Below are positions 2,680 to 39,501 of a DNA stretch of 39,501 bases, piece by piece (positions within the stretch are counted from its first letter, which is position 1; the number at the start of each line of letters is the position of its first letter). Under the pieces are notes generated by a model, which saw only the letters and a program-made list of their open reading frames with translations, ran no database searches and was not told the DNA's origin. A program made the position numbers and the translations under genes. The DNA comes from Clostridia bacterium (GTDB taxonomy: Bacteria; Bacillota; Clostridia; UBA1212; UBA1255): positions 1-39,501 of the forward strand of contig JAEFAM010000018.1 of the NCBI GenBank assembly GCA_016287565.1, in the 5' to 3' direction.

Positions 2680-4635
2680 TCAGAGCGTCGACAGATCCAC
2701 CACCTGCACGCTTCCGAACAGGTGTGCATGTCCCCGACAGCCGTACTCGAACGACTCGGGGTCAACGGTATCGGATATCACTTCGGTATAGAGACAGAGC
2801 CACCCGTCTCTGACCTCCCAGTGGCAGTAGCTTTTGAAACTCTGCTCGAGATCGCCCGGTTCTTTCAGCTTTCCGGGCACGATCTGATCTCTTATCTGCT
2901 GAATGAGCGCGGCTTCATACCCTGCCATCTGCTCGGCAGAGATCTCGTAACGCATAAGCCCTTCCGGGTAGCAGCGCTCCGGATACATGTCAGGGAAGTC
3001 GGTGCCGTTGCGATATTTAGGCGTATACCTGCCGTTGTGATACTCATATTCGTAGTACCAGTTAAGGTTCTTGCCGCCCAGCGTTATAATGAACCGCACG
3101 TACCACCAGCTGTTGTCGTCATACATGCGGCTGACAGTGACGTTCAGGCGGTCGAAGGGCAATCCGGCGAACTCCGGATATTGCTCCGTCAAAGCCTGCC
3201 GCGACAGTGTGATCAATTCTTCGTCGCCGGCGGGGGAGGCGGGAGGATCGGTATGCGGAGGAGGATCGGTATGCGGGGGATCGGTGCGGGGCGGATCCGT
3301 CGGTACGGGCGTTTCGATGCAGATCGTTGGCGTGGACGTGAGCGGAGGCGTCTGGGGAACGGCCGTTGCCGTGGGCGTCGGTGTGGCGGGAGATTTAGCG
3401 GCACGGAACAGTCCGGCAGCGTCGAAATCGTCGTCAATATATCCGTCCACGCCGTACAGCACCGCCAGCATCATTATCCTTTTGTACATGCCCGGCGTCG
3501 TCTCGCTGTTAACGGTCGCGATCTGATCATTCTCAAAGGTCTCCATGCGTTTGCTTGCCAGGAGCAGCTGGACAAGGGGCAGCAGGGAGGGATTGTTATT
3601 GACGGAAATCAGCCTCTCCGCCCGTATCGAATTGTCGTCTGAAAAGTACAGATACGGTGACTCGAAGCAGCGGTATAGTTCGAATCCGAAATTGTCGGCA
3701 GCCAGCGTCAATATATACCCTGGACACTCAGAATCGTAGCTCGTACTCAGCACGAAGGCCAATGTGCCATCTTTGTGGTTCAGTGATACCGTCTCTATCG
3801 TTCTGTCCGCACCTTCTCCGGGGCGATAACCCGTTTCGGCACCCGGGATGCTGCATACTCCTTTAGCGGCGAAAAGCAGCGCGATAGACGCCTCCGGCAT
3901 GTTCTCATTCGCCAGTCCTGTCCAGCTCTCATAATAACTGAGCAGCAGGTTCCGTTCCTTGGGGTCGCCGGTCTCTTCATAGATTCCGGAAGAGATCATG
4001 ACGGAAAAATCGTTGTCTTTGGTGGCGAAAGAGACGCTGTCCGAAGGCAGCTCGCTGCCGTGGGCGTCGAAAGCCATGATCGAGGCGTCGTTTCCGATCA
4101 GTTCCGCCACGGTGCGCATAACGTTGGCCGATACGCGGGCTTCTCCGAGCTTCTCGCCCTTTGCCACAGTTTCGTAATTCGCCAGCCTGTTTTCGCCGCC
4201 GGCGTTTTCCAGCCGGTACTGTTCGGCGCGGCCGCTGCCGTCGCCGTTTTTAAAGAAAAGCATATAGTCAACGGTCCCGTTGCTCTTTCTGAATGCTACG
4301 AAATAGGACGCCGCCGCGTTGGGATCAACGGCCTGGTCCGGATCCGATGTATTGCCGTTCACCTCATCGGACGGGCCTTCCGTAGGCACGTTCACCAGCG
4401 GATCACGCTTGCTGCCGTTGTTCCGGTTCTTCATCACCGCCACCGTGATCACGGTCAACGTCGCTATCAGCGCCACCGCCACCAGTATGGGGGACAATAC
4501 GTTCCAGCCGCTCTTGCCGCTGCCTCTGCTGCGCTTCCGCGCCGTTCCGGCGAAAGACGCCCCCGTCTCCGAGCGTTCGACCAGTTTCTGGTCAACGTCG
4601 TTGAATGCGTTATATAGATCATTTCTGTTCATCAT
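2680..4635 (-). CDS. Single-pass membrane protein, putative regulator partner (anti-sigma-like), unknown extracellular domain
   Basis: The 651-residue protein starts with a short polar cytoplasmic segment (about 1-44, with NDLYNAFNDVDQKLVE), then one transmembrane helix (about 46-68) and a large predicted extracellular part. A Pro/Thr-rich linker (about 411-469, repeated TDPP units) separates two extracellular regions. I recognise no catalytic domain. The N-terminus overlaps the XRE/sigma-4 gene by ATGA, so the two are translationally coupled. The second ATG (4632) has better spacing to the GGAGG. The same architecture appears in 34217-36466, which is coupled to an ECF sigma factor. That parallel supports, but does not prove, a role as a membrane sensor that holds its regulator. 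A terminator follows. Confidence 0.75.
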   Translation of the reverse strand: MMNRNDLYNAFNDVDQKLVERSETGASFAGTARKRSRGSGKSGWNVLSPILVAVALIATLTVITVAVMKNRNNGSKRDPLVNVPTEGPSDEVNGNTSDPDQAVDPNAAASYFVAFRKSNGTVDYMLFFKNGDGSGRAEQYRLENAGGENRLANYETVAKGEKLGEARVSANVMRTVAELIGNDASIMAFDAHGSELPSDSVSFATKDNDFSVMISSGIYEETGDPKERNLLLSYYESWTGLANENMPEASIALLFAAKGVCSIPGAETGYRPGEGADRTIETVSLNHKDGTLAFVLSTSYDSECPGYILTLAADNFGFELYRCFESPYLYFSDDNSIRAERLISVNNNPSLLPLVQLLLASKRMETFENDQIATVNSETTPGMYKRIMMLAVLYGVDGYIDDDFDAAGLFRAAKSPATPTPTATAVPQTPPLTSTPTICIETPVPTDPPRTDPPHTDPPPHTDPPASPAGDEELITLSRQALTEQYPEFAGLPFDRLNVTVSRMYDDNSWWYVRFIITLGGKNLNWYYEYEYHNGRYTPKYRNGTDFPDMYPERCYPEGLMRYEISAEQMAGYEAALIQQIRDQIVPGKLKEPGDLEQSFKSYCHWEVRDGWLCLYTEVISDTVDPESFEYGCRGHAHLFGSVQVVDLSTL

Positions 4636-5084
4636 TGCACCTCCTTGAGATACTTCTTCAACTTCCTGCGGGTCCTGGCCAGCACGGAGCGGACGTAATT
4701 GTCCCCGACGCCGTACCTTTCACCGATCTCCGCCGGAGTCTCATGGAACCGGTAACGTCTGACGAAAACGTCGCAGGCCTTGTCCGGCAGCGTCTTCAGG
4801 AAGCGGTTCAGAATCGACGCCACCGCGGCCCCGTTGCCCGGCGCCCCCTCCGAAGGCAGGCATTCCGCCAGCTCCTCCAGTATGACGTCCTCCTCGCTGA
4901 CTATCCGCTCCGGGTCGACCCCCAGCGCCGCCGCGATCTGCTCAACGGTCCTGTAGTCCGGCTTCCTCTCGCCGGACTCCCACTTGCACACCAGCTCCCT
5001 GGACACGAACAGCTTCTCCGCCAGTTCCTGCTGGGTCAATCCCCGTTCTTTTCTTATTTCTGCGATCCGGCTCCCGGGTCCCAT
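4632..5084 (-). CDS. XRE-type HTH fused to a sigma-70 region-4-like domain, transcription regulator
   Basis: The 150-residue protein has two DNA-binding modules. Residues about 5-60 are a Cro/C1 helix-turn-helix (RKERGLTQQELAEKLFVS and a following WESGERKPDYRTVEQIA). Residues about 95-147 resemble sigma region 4 (LPDKACDVFVRRYRF, then PAEIGERYGVGDNYVRSVLARTRRKL). No sigma region 2 is present, so it is probably not a complete sigma factor. It may act as a DNA-binding regulator or in a split sigma arrangement. GGAGG lies 9 nt before the ATG. The gene overlaps the membrane-protein gene downstream by ATGA. A palindrome array upstream (5107-5258) is a strong candidate for its autoregulatory operator. 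The domain calls are secure; the function is inferred. Confidence 0.85.
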   Translation of the reverse strand: MGPGSRIAEIRKERGLTQQELAEKLFVSRELVCKWESGERKPDYRTVEQIAAALGVDPERIVSEEDVILEELAECLPSEGAPGNGAAVASILNRFLKTLPDKACDVFVRRYRFHETPAEIGERYGVGDNYVRSVLARTRRKLKKYLKEVQ

Positions 5085-5106: not shown

Positions 5107-5258
5107 TCGACCGTCGATAGTTAACAGTTGGTCGTTAACAATTGATCGTAGATCGTCAACAGTTGATCGTTAACAGTTGATCGTTGATCGTCAACAGCTG
5201 ATCGTTGATCGTCAACAGCTGATCGTTGATCGTCAACAGCTGATCGTTGATCGTCAAC
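5107..5258 (-). promoter_or_regulatory. Tandem palindromic operator-like array upstream of the XRE/sigma-4 gene
   Basis: Four identical 13-bp palindromes GTTGATCGTCAAC start at 5183, 5204, 5225 and 5246, exactly 21 bp apart, which is two helical turns. Imperfect copies start at about 5127, 5148 and 5162, and a more degenerate one lies near 5107. Each is an inverted repeat GTTGA-N3-TCAAC. The array sits between the XRE/sigma-4 start codon and a weak promoter candidate, as expected for cooperative binding of a dimeric HTH regulator along one DNA face. Binding by the neighbouring regulator is inference. Confidence 0.65.
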
Positions 5259-5323: not shown

Positions 5324-5347
5324 GGTACAAAACGCAACAAGAAGAGT

Positions 5348-5600
5348 TGAACCCTTTCCGGTTAAGTGAATGAGGCAGGGTTCAGCTAAATTCGCCCTGC
5401 GGGCGAGCTAAATTGCGCGTGAGGCGCAGCTAAATTCGGCTTCGCCGAGCTAAATTCGTGCTGACGCACGAGTGAGATTAATCCTTTGGATGAGTGATAT
5501 TGCGCTTCGCGCAGTGATATTCGGCTTCGCCGAGTGATAATCATCCTTCGGATGAGTGATGTTTGTGCTGACGCACGAGTAATATTGCGCACTGCGTGCT
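5348..5600 (+). repeat. Hairpin array, cluster 1, forward orientation (about 10 units)
   Basis: After a larger hairpin with arms TGAACCCT (5348-5355) and AGGGTTCA (5377-5384), about ten short units follow from 5385. Each unit is a near-constant 8-nt linker plus a different small hairpin. The first four linkers are GCTAAATT; the later ones are GTGATATT or close variants. Hairpins include CGCCCTGCGGGCG, CGGCTTCGCCG, CGTGCTGACGCACG, GCGCTTCGCGC and CATCCTTCGGATG. Stem sequences vary between units while the linker is kept. No coding gene is credible here. Confidence 0.85.
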
Positions 5601-5639
5601 GCGAAACACTTCCTTCGCCTGTGCCAAGGGCCTTGCGCT

Positions 5640-5972
5640 GTCTCGAAGTGAGAGATGAGTGCAAAACGCCCAGAATTTGCCTCTTAATCCGGATTTCTGG
5701 GCGTTTTCGTAAAGGCGGCGCTGCTTCAAAGCCAGAAACGAGCGCGAAACGCCCGGTTTTTGCCTCTTAACCCGGATTTCTGGGCGTTTTCATAAAGGTG
5801 GCGCTGTCTCAAAGACAGAAATGAGCGCAAAACGCCCAGAATTTACATCTTAACCCGGATTTCTGGGCGTTTTCATAAAGGTGGCGCTGTCTCAAAGCCA
5901 GAAATGAGCGAGAAACGCCCAGAATTTGCCTCTTAACCCGGATTTCTGGGCGTTTTCGTAAAAGTTGCGCTG
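5640..5972 (+). repeat. 83-bp tandem repeats, cluster 1 (four copies)
   Basis: Four copies recur with an exact 83-bp period; the ACGCC motif starts at 5666, 5749, 5832 and 5915. Each copy holds a stem of about 13 bp (AAAACGCCCAGAA against TTCTGGGCGTTTT) around an 18-nt loop with CCTCTTAA and CCGGA, then a spacer with GCGCTGTCTCAAAGCCAGAAATGAGCG. The stem followed by TTTT looks like an intrinsic terminator, repeated. The second copy carries a CCGGTT change in the left arm. The same unit occurs three times at 37580-37860. Confidence 0.9.
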
Positions 5973-6009
5973 CCTGATAGCTCAAAATGAGCTTGAGATC
6001 AAATCCGCC

Positions 6010-6180
6010 TTTGCTCGTCCGCAGGACGAATTAAGCTGAAAGCCAACGGCTTTCAATTTCGCTGCCGCAAAGCGGCAATTTCGCCGGACTCTGACACTCT
6101 TACCTGACCTGTCAGGGTTCGATTTAGCTGTGAGCGCAAGCGAACAATTTAGCTCGCGCGCAAGCGCGAATTTAGCTGAA
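6010..6180 (-). repeat. Hairpin array with AATTTAGC/AATTTCGC linkers, cluster 1
   Basis: Small hairpins are joined by AATTAAGC, AATTTCGC or AATTTAGC, the reverse complements of the GCTAAATT-type linkers seen at 5385-5460. Hairpins include CGTCCGCAGGACG, TGAAAGCCAACGGCTTTC and TGCCGCAAAGCGGC. A longer imperfect hairpin around CTGACAC...TGTCAGGGTTC lies at about 6090-6130. The array is in the opposite orientation to the first part of the cluster. No gene is visible. Confidence 0.75.
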
Positions 6181-6220
6181 CCCAGGTGCTTTCAGTTAAG
6201 GCGCCGGTGTTCGACCTCAC

Positions 6221-6452
6221 TCCGCGCAGCGGAATATCACTCATCCGAAGGATGAACATCACTCGGCCGTCAGGCTGAATATCACTGCGCCTCGCGCAAT
6301 ATCACTCGACGAAGTCGAATATCACTCATCCGAAGGATGAACATCACTCGGCCGTCAGGCCGAATATCACTGCGCCCCGCGCAATATCACTCGACGAAGT
6401 CGAATATCACTCATCCGAAGGATGAATATCACTCGCCGCAGTCGAATATCAC
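6221..6452 (-). repeat. Hairpin array, cluster 1, reverse orientation (11 units) with an 85-bp higher-order repeat
   Basis: Eleven short hairpins are separated by AATATCAC (or ACATCAC), the reverse complement of the GTGATATT linker. The unit order TCATCC.., TCGGCC.., TGCGCC.., TCGACG.. repeats as a block: the TCATCCGAAGGATG hairpin starts at 6241, 6326 and 6411, an exact 85-bp period. The array therefore grew in part by duplication of four-unit blocks. It ends 30 bp before the PBP promoter. Confidence 0.9.
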
Positions 6453-6481
6453 TCTCTAAAGGCAACAGCCGCTCCCCTCAG

Positions 6482-6549: not shown

Positions 6550-8937
6550 GTGAAGCGGAGCAGACAGAGGTTCAAGCGCAGCAACGTAGAAGAGGCGCAA
6601 TACGAATATAAGAACCCGGTTGTCATATTCCTCAAGGTGGTATGGCACATATTCAGCGTTGCCCTGAAGGTCGCGCTCATTGCCGTCCTCATCGCCATAT
6701 GCGTTGCCGGAGGAGCCGTGGTGGGGCTTGTTACCGCCTGCATCAGCACCACCGAGCCGGTCACGGACATACAGCTGGAGACCGCGTCGTTGACCTCGTT
6801 CATCTATTACCCGGACGGGAAGCCTGTGACGTACATAAACGACGAAGGGCTGGAAGAACCTATTGCCCTGAAAGGTACCGGCAACGTTAACCGCGTGCTG
6901 GTATCATTCGACGACGTGCCCAAATACTTGAGAGACGCATTCGTTGCCATCGAGGACGAGCGATTCTACAGCCATCCGGGCGTTGACGTGAAGCGTTCGC
7001 TTTCGGCTATCGTAGCGTATATGCTTCCCGGATTCGGCTCCTACGGCGGCAGCACCATCACGCAGCAGCTGATCAAGAACGCCACGGGCGACGACGAACA
7101 GAGCGTGCTCAGGAAGATCTCCGAGATGTGGCGCGCGTACCTGCTCGAGAAAGACTATTCCAAGGAAGAGATCCTTGAAAAATATATGAATATCATATAT
7201 ATGGGGCGCGACTGCTACGGCGTTCAGGCCGCAGCCAGGGCGTATTTCGGCAAAAACGTGGGAGAACTGTCCCTGGCCGAGTGCGCGTACCTTGCCGGGA
7301 TCACCAACAACCCGGGCAAATACGCTCCTCACACCACGCTGGGACGCCAGAACGGATACAAGCGCCAGATCATCATCCTGGACAAGATGCTGGAACTGGG
7401 CAACATAACGAAAGAGGAGTACATCGAGGCCATCCAGACCAAGCTGGAATTCAACGAAGAGTACGAGGCCGGGTCCTCCTACGCGCTGTACAGCTACTTT
7501 GTTGACGCGGTGATCACCGACGTGCGCGACGCTTTCATGGAGCGGGGCTACACCAAGAGCGAGGCCAACGGCATGATCTACGGCGGAGGCATCCGGATCT
7601 ACATCACCCAGGACAGAGATATGCAGGCGATCGTTGACCGGGAGTTCAACAACGACGACAATTTCCCCGTGAACTATCAGTATTCTGCGCTGACGGACAA
7701 GGCCCAGGCGGCCATCGTCATAATGGACCAGTACACGGGCCAGGTCAAGGCGATGTACGGCGGCTACGGGCCCAAGACCACGAACCTGGCGTACAACTAC
7801 GCTACCAACGCCCACAGGCAGCCCGGATCTTCCATCAAACCGATCCTGGTGTACGCGCCCCTCATCGACCAGCACATAATCACCACGGCCACAACTATAG
7901 TTGACGAGGAATCCTACCTCGATCCGGACAATCCCGAGCGGCCCTGGCCCAAGAACTCTTACAAGAAGTTCAGGGGGACCATATCGGTGCGCCAGGCCAT
8001 TGCCATCTCCTGCAACGTTGCCGCGGTGAAGCTGTACAAGGACAACATTCCTATGTGCCTCCAGTACCTGAAGCGCTCGGGCATCGACAGGACCGGCGAG
8101 ACTCAGATCTCGGTGGCGCTGGGCGGCCTTACCAACGGCGTGTGCGCCATGGAGATGTGCGCCGCGTACGTGCCTTTCTCCAACGGCACTGGCATCTATC
8201 ATGAGCCCATCACTTTCACCAAGGTGCTGGATTCCGACGGCAACGTGCTGATCGACAACATTTCCGAGTCTCACGTGGTATACGACGACGCCCAGACCGC
8301 CTCCATTATGACTTCGCTGCTGACTTCCGTTATGGACGACGATTACGGCGGCACCGCGCGCAAGGCCAAGATATATACCAGTGACGGCACGCTGATCCCC
8401 GCCGCCGGCAAGACCGGTACGACGTCTAACTCCTACGACTACTGGTTCGTAGGATATACCGGATATTACACCGCCGCCGTATGGTACGGCTATCCCTCGC
8501 AGAAGTCCATGCAGGCCGAAGAAAAGGGCGCCGCGTATTACATATGGCAGGCCGTCATGGGCCAGATCCACCAGGATCTGCCTATAAAAGAGCTGGCAAC
8601 GGGCACCGCCGGCAAGAGCGTCCAGATCTGCGCCGAATCCCGCGGACTGGCGACCGCCTACTGCGTCGAATGCGGCGTGGCAACCTACGAGATATTTGCC
8701 GACGGCACTCAGCCCACGTCCTACTGCTCGCACCACGTCAAGGTCAAAGTCTGCCTCGACGCCGGCAAGGACAAGAACGGCAAGTACATCCTCGCGGGAC
8801 CCAACTGCACCCATACCGAAGAAGTGGTCACAAGCAGGGACAATATCGCTTCCGGCTCCTGCACCGTCTGCAAGCCTGCGGCCCAGACTCCCGATCCCGC
8901 AGCCACTCCCGCACCCACTCAGGCAGTTCCAAACTGA
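6550..8937 (+). CDS. Class A penicillin-binding protein (GT51 glycosyltransferase plus transpeptidase)
   Basis: The 795-residue bifunctional peptidoglycan synthase has a cytoplasmic tail and one membrane helix (about 32-60). The GT51 domain carries EDERFYSHPG with the catalytic Glu near 135, and GGSTITQQL near 164-172. The transpeptidase domain has SSIK (nucleophile Ser427, Lys430), SCN at 487-489 and KTG at 621-623, so both activities look intact. The start is GTG at 6550, placed 9 nt after AGGAGG. The C-terminus adds a stretch with eight cysteines (including YCVEC and CTVC) and ends in a Pro/Ala/Thr tail. It polymerises and crosslinks glycan strands on the outer face of the membrane. It has its own promoter, and the tRNA unit follows. 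Confidence 0.96.
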   Translation: MKRSRQRFKRSNVEEAQYEYKNPVVIFLKVVWHIFSVALKVALIAVLIAICVAGGAVVGLVTACISTTEPVTDIQLETASLTSFIYYPDGKPVTYINDEGLEEPIALKGTGNVNRVLVSFDDVPKYLRDAFVAIEDERFYSHPGVDVKRSLSAIVAYMLPGFGSYGGSTITQQLIKNATGDDEQSVLRKISEMWRAYLLEKDYSKEEILEKYMNIIYMGRDCYGVQAAARAYFGKNVGELSLAECAYLAGITNNPGKYAPHTTLGRQNGYKRQIIILDKMLELGNITKEEYIEAIQTKLEFNEEYEAGSSYALYSYFVDAVITDVRDAFMERGYTKSEANGMIYGGGIRIYITQDRDMQAIVDREFNNDDNFPVNYQYSALTDKAQAAIVIMDQYTGQVKAMYGGYGPKTTNLAYNYATNAHRQPGSSIKPILVYAPLIDQHIITTATTIVDEESYLDPDNPERPWPKNSYKKFRGTISVRQAIAISCNVAAVKLYKDNIPMCLQYLKRSGIDRTGETQISVALGGLTNGVCAMEMCAAYVPFSNGTGIYHEPITFTKVLDSDGNVLIDNISESHVVYDDAQTASIMTSLLTSVMDDDYGGTARKAKIYTSDGTLIPAAGKTGTTSNSYDYWFVGYTGYYTAAVWYGYPSQKSMQAEEKGAAYYIWQAVMGQIHQDLPIKELATGTAGKSVQICAESRGLATAYCVECGVATYEIFADGTQPTSYCSHHVKVKVCLDAGKDKNGKYILAGPNCTHTEEVVTSRDNIASGSCTVCKPAAQTPDPAATPAPTQAVPN

Positions 8938-37045: not shown

Positions 37046-37074
37046 ATTATATCACCGATTGTTAGCACTGTCAA
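37046..37074 (-). promoter_or_regulatory. sigma-A promoter of the hsp20 gene
   Basis: On the minus strand, TTGACA (37069-37074) and TATAAT (37046-37051) are separated by exactly 17 bp; both hexamers match consensus perfectly. The CIRCE operator covers the -35 box. Confidence 0.9.
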
Positions 37075-37088
37075 TAGGTGAGTGCTAA
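37062..37088 (-). promoter_or_regulatory. CIRCE operator (HrcA binding site)
   Basis: TTAGCACTG-N9-GAGTGCTAA matches the CIRCE consensus TTAGCACTC-N9-GAGTGCTAA in 17 of 18 arm positions (37062-37070, 37080-37088). HrcA bound here would block the overlapping hsp20 promoter. Confidence 0.92.
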
Positions 37089-37179: not shown

Positions 37180-37542
37180 GTGATATTCGCACTGATGTGC
37201 GAGTGATATTCGTGCTGCGCGCAGTGATATTTGCCCTGTGGGCAAGTGATATTCACCCTTTGGGTGAGTGATATTCCGCTTCGCGCAGTGATGTTCGCCT
37301 GGCGGCGAGTGATATTGCGCTTCGCGCAGTGATATTCGTGCTGACGCACGAGTGATATTTGCCCTGCGGGCAAGTGATATTCACCCTTTGGGTGAGTGAT
37401 GTTCCGCTGCGCGGAGTGATGTTCGCCTGGCGGCGAGTGATATTGCGCTTCGCGCAGTGATGTTCGCCTGGCGGCGAGTGATATTGCGCTGCGCGCAGTG
37501 ATATTCGTGCTGACGCACGAGTGATATTGTGCGCGATGCGGC
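37180..37542 (+). repeat. Hairpin array, cluster 2, forward orientation (17 units)
   Basis: About 17 units consist of the linker GTGATATT or GTGATGTT plus a variable hairpin of 11-15 nt, e.g. CGCACTGATGTGCG, TGCCCTGTGGGCA, CACCCTTTGGGTG, CGCCTGGCGGCG, GCGCTTCGCGC, CGTGCTGACGCACG. The order CGTGC, TGCCC, CACCC, CCGC, CGCC, GCGC occurs twice, about 126 bp apart (from 37203 and 37329), so blocks of six units were duplicated. Stems tend to stay paired although their sequences differ, e.g. CCGCTGCGCGG beside CCGCTTCGCGC. No credible gene lies here. Confidence 0.9.
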
Positions 37543-37579
37543 AACTAAACGCTTTCTTCGCTTGTACCGGGGACCTTGC

Positions 37580-37860
37580 GCTGTCTCGAAGGCAGAAAGG
37601 AGTGCAAAACGCCCAGATTTTACCTCTTACCCCGGATTTCTGGGCGTTTTCGTAAAGGTTGCGCTGTCTCGAAGGCAAAAAAGAACGAGAAACGCCCTGA
37701 TTTTACCTCTTGCCCTGGATTTCTGGGCGTTTTCGTGAAGGTAGCGCTGTCTCAAAGCCAAAAATGAGCGCGAAACGCCCTGATTTTACCTCTTGGCCTG
37801 GATTTCTGGGCGTTTTCATAAAGGTTGCGCTTTCTGGAAGGTAAAAATGAGTGCGAAACG
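37580..37860 (+). repeat. 83-bp tandem repeats, cluster 2 (three copies plus a partial)
   Basis: Copies start (ACGCC motif) at 37609, 37692 and 37775, an exact 83-bp period, in the same orientation as at 5640-5972. The stem and loop are shared, with drift in the left arm (AAACGCCCTGA in copies two and three). The connector before them (CCTTGCGCTGTCTCGAAGG) also matches the one at about 5630-5650. A truncated unit follows to about 37860. Confidence 0.88.
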
Positions 37861-37877
37861 AAAATGATCCACCTTCA

Positions 37878-38158
37878 CTCGGCACCGCCGAATATCACTG
37901 AACCCTGACACTGTCGCTATAATGTCAGGGTTCAATATCATTCGCCGCCAGGCGACCATCTCTCGCACGTCAGTGCGAATATCACTGCGCGTCCCGCGCA
38001 ATATCACTCGTGCGTCAGCACGAATATCACTGTGCACAGCACAATATCACTTGCGCGCCAGCGCAAATTTAGCTGCGCGCCCCGCGCACAATTTCGCTCG
38101 TCCGCCGGGACGAATTTAGCCGAAACCTGACGCTCTCGTCTGATCTGTCAGGTTTCGA
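37878..38158 (-). repeat. Hairpin array, cluster 2, reverse orientation, ending in the stop of the GT8/PlsC gene
   Basis: About ten hairpins are joined by AATATCAC and, towards the end, by AATTTAGC and AATTTCGC. One member is a larger perfect hairpin with 12-nt arms TGAACCCTGACA (37899-37910) / TGTCAGGGTTCA (37923-37934). The array ends with CGAAACCTGAC...GTCAGGTTTCG (about 38120-38158); the minus-strand stop codon of the acyltransferase gene lies inside that stem. Confidence 0.85.
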
Positions 38159-39501
38159 TCGCCTTCACCCCGTCATACTCCACCTTGCCGGTCTCGGTGA
38201 TGTACTCCAGGGGCAGCCCGTATTCGCGCTCGTAGATCTCCTTCCAGATCTCGTAGTTCGTTGACATCAGGCGGCGCACGTTCTCCTTTTCGGACAATGC
38301 CGGGTCGGGAAGGATGGGCTCGGAGACGATCACCGTGTACTCCTGCACCGCGAAGCCGTCGTCGTCAAGGTACCCTGAATCCCGCATCACTATAAAGCAG
38401 GGGAGCACGGGGACGTTGTTGCGGGCCGCGAACGTGAACGCGCCTCTCTTGAACGGCCTGGGCTTTCTGTAATTCCACCACATTGCCTGCTCGGGGTAGA
38501 TCAGGACAAAATGACCGTCCTGCAGTATCTGGTCCGTGGATTTTATAAACTTCTTCAGCGTGTCCTTGTTCGACGACAGGGGCAGCGTGTGGCAATGCCG
38601 CATCAGGAAGCCGTAGAAGCCGGGGAAGGAAGTGTAGTTGCCCTCGCGGATGACGCGGTAGAAAGTGCGCTTGGGCTGTTCAGCCGCCTCGTATACCATC
38701 TGGATCGCGAAGCTGTCCAGGGCGTTGAAGTGGTTGCAGGTGATGATCGCGCCGGAGGAGAGGTTCTGGAAATTCTCTATGCCGCGGATCTCCTTCAGTA
38801 TGAACTTGTTCTCCTTCGTGAGCCGGTTGATGAACCGCCGGGCAAACATGAACGCCGCCTTGGTCTGCATCTTCTGGATGATGTTGCTGCGGTAATATTC
38901 GATCTCGTCGGGCATAAGGACTCTTGACGGAGGATCCGACTCCACGTCCTCGAAGAAATTGCCGCGGCGCTCGAAATCTTCTATCTTCTGAACGATCTCC
39001 ACCCGGTCAAGCGACCTGGACTGGTTGACTACTTCTATAAAATTGTTCTCTTTTTCCGTCTCGATACGCGCCGTTTCCAAAAGTTTTTCGCCTCCTGCCT
39101 TGTCCCTCTCCCGCTGCTCGTCGGTATATGCCGCCTGGTTCGCCCTGAGTTCATCGTACACTTCCGTCCAGGCAGCGTATTTCCAGAATATGTCTCCGTG
39201 CTTGCAGTCCGGGTAGTTCCAGGGCTTACTGAACAGGCAGTAGTGGATTATCTTGGCCTCTTCGATAGGGAAGGGAATGTTGTCCAGCACTTCCGTGTTC
39301 CAGCGCTGGTTCAGCCAGTAGACGTGGTCCTTGCAGATGACGTTCAGGTAGTCCTCGTCCTGGGTCACCACGAAATTGTACAGCTGCAGATAGTGTATGA
39401 ACTTGTCCAGGATGAACCGCATCCTGAATTCTTCACGATTGATCAGCACTATGCCTGCGTTGAAGAAATTGTACCGGGAGATGCCGAGCGCTTTCTCCAC
39501 G
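38148..39501 (-). CDS. Fusion of GT8-family glycosyltransferase (C-terminal part) and PlsC-type acyltransferase; 5' end outside window
   Basis: The open frame runs to the right window edge; the first GTG at 39500 is probably internal. The N-terminal 120 visible residues match the C-terminal half of GT8 enzymes: NFFNAGIVLINREEFR, TQDEDYLNVIC and KIIHYCLFSKPWNY. A charged linker (about 125-200) leads to a PlsC/LPLAT domain with CNHFNALDSFA (the NHX4D motif, about 254-264), and YPEQAMWW (about 333-340) for the later block. It would combine sugar transfer with acylation of a glycerophosphate- or glycolipid-type acceptor at the inner membrane face. The stop codon lies within a hairpin of the adjoining repeat array. 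Confidence 0.88.
   Translation of the reverse strand, partial: VEKALGISRYNFFNAGIVLINREEFRMRFILDKFIHYLQLYNFVVTQDEDYLNVICKDHVYWLNQRWNTEVLDNIPFPIEEAKIIHYCLFSKPWNYPDCKHGDIFWKYAAWTEVYDELRANQAAYTDEQRERDKAGGEKLLETARIETEKENNFIEVVNQSRSLDRVEIVQKIEDFERRGNFFEDVESDPPSRVLMPDEIEYYRSNIIQKMQTKAAFMFARRFINRLTKENKFILKEIRGIENFQNLSSGAIITCNHFNALDSFAIQMVYEAAEQPKRTFYRVIREGNYTSFPGFYGFLMRHCHTLPLSSNKDTLKKFIKSTDQILQDGHFVLIYPEQAMWWNYRKPRPFKRGAFTFAARNNVPVLPCFIVMRDSGYLDDDGFAVQEYTVIVSEPILPDPALSEKENVRRLMSTNYEIWKEIYEREYGLPLEYITETGKVEYDGVKAIET

Follow-up and report, generated by a model that had tools for sequence, protein, structure and literature searches.

REP sequences consist of a palindrome plus a tetranucleotide tag, and REPs and BIMEs are dispersed, intergenic and clustered in inverse orientation. 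The intervening sequences (IVSs) of 23S rRNA are selfish inserts, the complementary ends of which form a long stem, with the ORF of the intervening sequence protein (IVP) in the loop (PMC4990558). In the Coxiella burnetii 23S rRNA IVS, which is subject to excision by RNase III, heptameric repeats are reported to lie upstream of the S23p ORF, and the function of IVP is stated to be unknown (PMC4990558). Heptanucleotide repeats of the TAACTGA type form dispersed intergenic arrays in Beggiatoaceae and other bacteria, for which a mobile repeat-binding protein has been suggested (PMC4679880). The published account of Gut-1 lists it among candidate non-coding RNAs and gives the human gut as its only source (PMC2864571).

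The locus considered here lies in a window of 39,501 nt (the whole stretch of DNA analysed; contig JAEFAM010000018.1 of assembly GCA_016287565.1) from a gut-type Clostridia bacterium with a 2.65 Mb draft genome, labelled G000 below. It is a composite cassette, in which two arrays of short hairpins face each other across a central module. Its layout, its insertion and its connection with IVP are new within the literature searched; the family to which its units belong has a name but no explanation. The best reading of Gut-1 RNA is that it is part of an inserted repeat element; that the cassette represents one of many inserted copies of an IVS-like selfish repeat element, the arms of which form one giant hairpin, is an account to which we give an even chance of being right.

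Anatomy of the cassettes

The preliminary description had placed the feature at 5348-6452 and had counted more than twenty linker-palindrome units. The feature itself stands, but comparison with an empty site moves its ends to 5340 and 6461 (Table 1), and it contains 27 units (10 forward, 5385-5586; 6 and 11 reverse, 6029-6176 and 6233-6452) with near-constant 8-nt linkers, GTGATATT or GCTAAATT. In the forward array four GCTAAATT units are followed by six with GTGATATT or one-base variants. The four 83-bp repeats followed by the same design in reverse complement were likewise correctly recognised, with 4.3 copies of the repeat by TRF and 17 reverse units. The description of the cluster as roughly palindromic at the 1-kb scale holds for the facing orientation, but not for the arms as mirror images, since the order of hairpin types differs between them; each arm has both linker types. 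Higher-order tandem periods of 85 and 128 bp occur within arrays, the 11-unit reverse array having the 85-bp period.

Table 1. Features of the two cassettes and their surroundings (window coordinates)
Feature	Position	Strand	Remarks
Sigma-r4/HTH gene	4632-5084	-	left neighbour of first cassette
7-nt array (GATCGTT, GATCGTC, AACAGTT, AACAGCT)	5112..5258	+	outside the cassette, same intergenic region
Left GCAACA	5334..5339	.	candidate 6-bp target-site duplication; single copy in G006 empty site
First cassette, whole composite	5340..6461	.	ends set against empty site in congener G006
Long terminal hairpin GAACCCT...AGGGTTC	5349..5383	+	unit type also in other cassettes
Forward hairpin array, 10 units	5385..5603	+	Gut-1 match 5470-5545
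Central module, 83-bp repeat, 4.3 copies (TRF)	5635..5992	+	each with palindrome AAACGCCC...GGGCGTTT
Central palindrome cores	5664-5706, 5747-5789, 5830-5872, 5913-5955		
Reverse hairpin array, 6 AATTTAGC-type units	6029..6176	-	
Reverse hairpin array, 11 AATATCAC-type units	6233..6454	-	Gut-1 matches 6209-6287, 6294-6372, 6379-6454
Right GCAACA	6462..6467	.	candidate target-site duplication
PBP1-like gene	6550-8937	+	right neighbour of first cassette
Second cassette, forward array, 17 units	37180..37528	+	three + strand Gut-1 matches within 37244-37532
Second cassette, 83-bp central repeats, 3.4 copies	37576..37860	+	
Second cassette, reverse array, 9 units	37891..38120	-	Gut-1 match 37996-38075
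Second cassette, terminal long hairpin GAAACCTGAC...GTCAGGTTTC	38122..38156	-	
Glycosyl/acyltransferase gene	38148-39500	-	stop codon supplied by second-cassette terminal hairpin

A second cassette of like layout lies at 37180-38156, and the feature first noted is thus one of a pair within the window alone. A CIRCE-like HrcA operator, TTAGCACTG-N9-GAGTGCTAA, is present at 37062-37088, before the Hsp20 gene, the second cassette being some 90 bp away. The 7-nt array beside the first cassette has no evident facing partner nearby.

Variable stems and retained pairing

Parsing of the array-bearing stretches of G000, this window included, gave 376 units; among the linkers of the genome, GTGATATT occurs 149 times, GCTAAATT 110, GCGAAATT 31 and GTGATGTT 24. 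There are 207 distinct spacers and 49 different 5' arms, and a few hairpin loops (TTC, TGC, TGGC, TGAC) are favoured. A CRISPR array was rejected, as the preliminary description had already argued in calling the design the opposite of one: the palindrome varies, the linker is constant, and spacers recur. Construction of the unit from three heptamers was also rejected, unit lengths peaking at 20, 22 and 23 with no peak at 21.

It had been noted that stems change sequence while remaining paired, and the pairing of stems is indeed kept far above chance. When 3' halves were exchanged among units of equal length, a mean of 40 spacers (maximum 53 in 200 trials) had a stem of at least 4 bp, compared with 135 of the 207 observed; the mean paired fraction is 0.854, against 0.610 in swapped spacers, and about one-third of the distinct spacers are partly decayed. 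A test for compensatory changes had been proposed. Where two units have exactly two stem differences, these are at partner positions in 378 of 476 pairs, with both base pairs intact in 342, against 46 expected. The retained pairing extends, as a second order, to the 83-bp centre, and is also seen in a congener. A simple minisatellite, including the decayed copies of one considered in the preliminary description, was rejected, the arms differing with pairing kept and the arrays being opposed.

Kept pairing alone separates neither selection from copying nor common descent from separate origins of the stems. In one account there is no mobility at all, the arrays having grown locally by slippage with stems kept paired by mutational template switching in hairpins; template switching copies one arm onto the other, and covariation therefore needs no function. 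Both the higher-order tandem repeats and the excess of intact double differences agree with this account, and a template-switch or slippage process may be active inside the arrays. As a full explanation it is nevertheless unlikely, and comes second among the alternatives considered here, in that it leaves unaccounted for the approximately 30 copies scattered over the genome with shared linkers, the strictly facing order of arrays, the en bloc insertion at 5340-6461 and the link to IVP.

Facing arrays and predicted folding

Neighbouring arrays of opposite sense in G000 are facing in 14 cases and divergent in none. As RNA, the two arms of the first cassette fold together, when facing, at -339.6 kcal/mol compared with -260.4 kcal/mol apart, a gain of approximately 79 kcal/mol; with one arm turned, the gain from joint folding is only 14 kcal/mol. 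The predicted fold of the whole first cassette (-520 kcal/mol) is well below that of dinucleotide shuffles (-366 kcal/mol, sd 9), and its minimum free energy structure joins both arms, as with the long stem of 23S rRNA IVSs. Facing arrays can thus pair with each other, so that a single strand of the element would be expected to fold into one giant hairpin.

En bloc insertion, and comparison of orthologous sites

In the congener G006 the sigma-r4/HTH and PBP gene pair is separated by a short intergenic region without an array. When joined at one GCAACA, the window flanks align to this empty site, a join that was read directly and checked, the global alignment with the empty site having scattered blocks through the cassette. 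Given that G006 lacks the cassette, and that GCAACA stands on both sides of it in the window and once in G006, it follows that the cassette was inserted en bloc. The layout at this locus fits such an insertion with a putative 6-bp target duplication, a single case that is not proof of duplication. Target duplications and empty sites would mark a MITE or other transposed element; here a cleanly resolved empty site, with a candidate duplication, is available for this one cassette only, and agreement over 6 bp can be fortuitous. The insertion is intergenic and not in an rRNA helix, the setting of 23S rRNA IVSs.

At the second locus, G006, G003 and G004 have no such cassette between the Hsp20 gene and the orthologous gene, in a comparison that is not base-resolved. 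In G001 an array is present there, with the linker GTGAGATT and with other, ACATACC-type, stems in the centre, which retains part of the constant sequence, CTCCGGCCTGAAA.TGAGCGAG. Within G000 the centres of cassettes also vary and can be 83-bp CGCCC/GGGCG repeats, similar repeats with TCGAGGGA stems, a short spacer or a gene. The centre is thus partly constant with other stems, i.e. the combination of a constant linker and a changeable stem recurs at two scales.

In the promoter region of the PBP gene, array types differ among G000, G001, G002 and G004 (L037, L039, L045, L047), with hairpin units, AAGTGGC heptamers (G001, G004) and CACTTAA-type heptamers upstream of the gene.

Identity with Gut-1 and distribution

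The preliminary description knew no named family for the units; this does not hold, as they are Gut-1 RNA of Rfam (RF01706), with eight matches in the window at 55.9-70.1 bits (cmscan; gathering score 50 bits). There are 95 matches at approximately 30 places in G000 (E<=0.001). The proposed search of related genomes for arrays, made with the Gut-1 model, gave matches in 15 of 58 genomes (G000 and relatives), with 0 to 3 in congeners, the orthologous proteins of which are 74-88% identical. In the class, 30 of 148 genomes have matches, with copy numbers from 0 to at least 29 and large numbers in several unrelated families. The plasmids and phages searched had no DNA resembling the cassette. Such a distribution is typical of a sequence that is gained by spreading and then lost, and not of a conserved housekeeping RNA.

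It might be that Gut-1 is a functional non-coding RNA, as classed in Rfam, with the arrays transcribed and the string of hairpins acting as an RNA or as a 3'-end/termination element. The Rfam match and the strong RNA folding agree with this, as do the 7 terminator-like sites of the region, where 2.1 would be expected, and, in other genomes, the frequent location of arrays after a terminator-like hairpin and downstream of tRNA genes (within 300 bp at 9 of 22 loci). By contrast, the G000 copies lie amid convergent, tandem and divergent genes (7, 16 and 8, by a rough ORF count) with no common neighbour, most relatives are without any match, and orthologous sites without the cassette exist. A functional RNA is for us the foremost of the alternatives, though an unlikely one. 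A further alternative, that the host keeps the facing arrays as nucleoid-type or protein-binding sites, for instance for a dispersed DNA-binding protein, would accord with the many intergenic copies and the constant AT-rich linker, but is very improbable: few or no matches in these congeners are unlikely for a site essential to the host, and copy numbers vary within the class. As against the roles in RNA decay, in nucleoid binding or as an endonuclease target on which the preliminary description had speculated, the approximately 30 copies, the empty site in a congener, the patchy distribution and the IVP link together point to a spreading, inserted element.

IVP genes at Gut-1 arrays

In one G000 cassette (L067, contig C140) an intact 120-aa IVP ORF (PF05635, TIGR02436) replaces the 83-bp repeats. 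It is the only one of the approximately 30 G000 cassettes with an IVP gene in the loop; both window cassettes have 83-bp repeats and no IVP/S23p ORF there, and most Gut-1 arrays are without an IVP gene. G000 has just one further IVP gene, across which two heptamer arrays face each other (left AAATGGC, right GCCATTT). In other families an IVP gene is located beside a hairpin array at four Gut-1 loci (L276, L280, L022 and L285), the first three in the order tRNA, terminator-like hairpin, facing array, IVP. Chance would give approximately 0.03 such adjacencies, by our own estimate from the density of IVP genes (16 PF05635 matches in 31 genomes of the order).

Eight of the ten Gut-1-bearing genomes of the order, all of them drafts, have no PF05635 match, and the arrays thus need no IVP gene in the same (draft) genome; congeners have IVP genes and few or no Gut-1 matches. 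IVP is a four-helix bundle, the structures of relatives (2rld, 2gsc) having been solved with five chains, and no cleavage or strand-transfer enzyme for the cassette was identified in this analysis.

Two other enzymes were considered. G000 has a lone reverse transcriptase (PADLOC RT_UG26; L136, 1426-2712, contig C72), for which no link to the arrays was found. Some reverse transcriptase is present in 7 of 9 IVP-bearing versus 5 of 22 IVP-less genomes of the order, a statistic that ignores relatedness; as a partner the reverse transcriptase was dropped, with UG26 in 2 of 199 Bacillota genomes versus IVP in 35. A transposase enters if the units are BIME/REP-like palindromes spread by a Y1 (RAYT-type) enzyme that recognises a hairpin plus a short constant tag. 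Hairpin and constant linker can be likened to a REP and its tetranucleotide, and G000 has three Y1_Tnp genes with open frames of 264-443 aa. None of the three, however, is among Gut-1 arrays, their surroundings holding other repeats, and a Y1/RAYT transposase was rejected as the mover on that ground; moreover, the flanks of Y1 genes have no facing 7-nt arrays in 27 control loci. Spread of this kind is improbable, and ranks after local growth by slippage.

IVP genes between facing arrays across phyla

A set of 80 IVP loci from named genomes, spanning Clostridia, Bacteroidota, Ignavibacteria, Cyanobacteria, Campylobacterota and others, was assembled, of which 78 were scored for periodicity of the flanks. 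Both flanks are 7-periodic at 54 of the 78, compared with none of 56 pairs of windows displaced by about 1.5 kb, and at least one flank is at 73, compared with 3 of the displaced controls; these controls are largely coding, such that intergenic-matched ones would be preferable, and transposase loci, where both flanks are 7-periodic at 0 of 27, answer this in part. The heptamer sequence varies among loci. Within a locus, the left and right heptamers are reverse complements of each other in 49 of these 54 cases (at least 6/7 positions, any rotation), versus 13.5% of cross-locus pairs. Among 22 independent Bacillota IVP loci outside 23S rRNA, 11 have both flanks periodic, 9 of them facing. No description of facing arrays around IVP genes was found in a literature search that covered few subscription journals and no preprints.

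IVP elements also interrupt 23S rRNA genes, and one is beside tmRNA; two genomes have such an element within the RNase P RNA gene (775 nt compared with the 367-nt model). In L125 and L127 (1229-2003) about 400 nt in the RNase P RNA gene hold IVP between the facing heptamers TTGGAAG and CTTCCAA. At the clostridial loci L187, L192, L194, L208, L233 and L236, a tRNA gene is followed within about 200 bp by facing arrays of the 7-nt type and then by IVP on the same strand. In L022, L097, L102 and L194, IVP is closely followed by a different gene in a cargo-like arrangement, these genes appearing from sequence to be nucleotidyltransferase-like, TIGR04076-like or phosphoesterase-like.

It may tentatively be proposed, at a little less than an even chance, that IVP genes throughout bacteria mark a single class of selfish element that has gone unrecognised. 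Facing arrays of 7-nt or hairpin units would define this class, and its members would be attached either to structured RNA genes, in loops of 23S rRNA and RNase P RNA or next to tRNA genes, or to intergenic sites; Gut-1 RNA would be the array part of the hairpin-unit branch.

A model, and comparison with known systems

If the cassette is a copy of an inserted selfish element, its facing hairpin arrays would pair with each other, a single strand folding as a giant hairpin, in the loop of which would be either larger hairpins (the 83-bp repeats) or the IVP gene. Tandem duplication would multiply the units, the stems of which would drift but remain paired, whether through selection for the fold, template switching in hairpins or both. 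On this account IVP would bind the arrays in their folded form and contribute to, or drive, the spread of the cassette. Copies without IVP, including the first cassette, would then be non-autonomous and spread in trans. By analogy with 23S rRNA IVSs, where RNase III excision has this effect, the giant hairpin may make the insert tolerable.

With these findings Gut-1, an orphan Rfam family, can be assigned to a host group and given a genomic anatomy and a proposed mode of spread, and becomes tied to a little-understood selfish gene family, that of the 23S rRNA intervening sequence protein. The pattern of IVP with facing arrays makes the function of IVP directly testable, as binding of arrays in RNA or DNA form, and suggests where many of the heptanucleotide arrays of bacterial genomes, so far unexplained, come from.

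The array units of the window score above the gathering cut-off of the Gut-1 covariance model; the 77-nt model, however, spans only some four units of a cassette that is longer, has facing arrays and occurs in many inserted copies in bacterial genomes. With REPs and BIMEs the cassettes share dispersed intergenic palindromes next to a constant tag, and clusters of inverse orientation. They differ in that the stems vary, with 49 distinct 5' arms, while the linker is fixed, and in that no RAYT gene adjoins. The heptanucleotide repeat sets (PMC4679880) likewise consist of short units in arrays dispersed through intergenic DNA; neither facing pairs nor a link to IVP has been described for them, and the window units are mostly 20-25-nt hairpins. 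As in the 23S rRNA IVSs, complementary ends form a predicted stem around a loop, which in L067 holds an IVP ORF; by contrast with those IVSs, the cassettes are intergenic, their arms are hairpin arrays rather than a single stem, and most copies are without an ORF.
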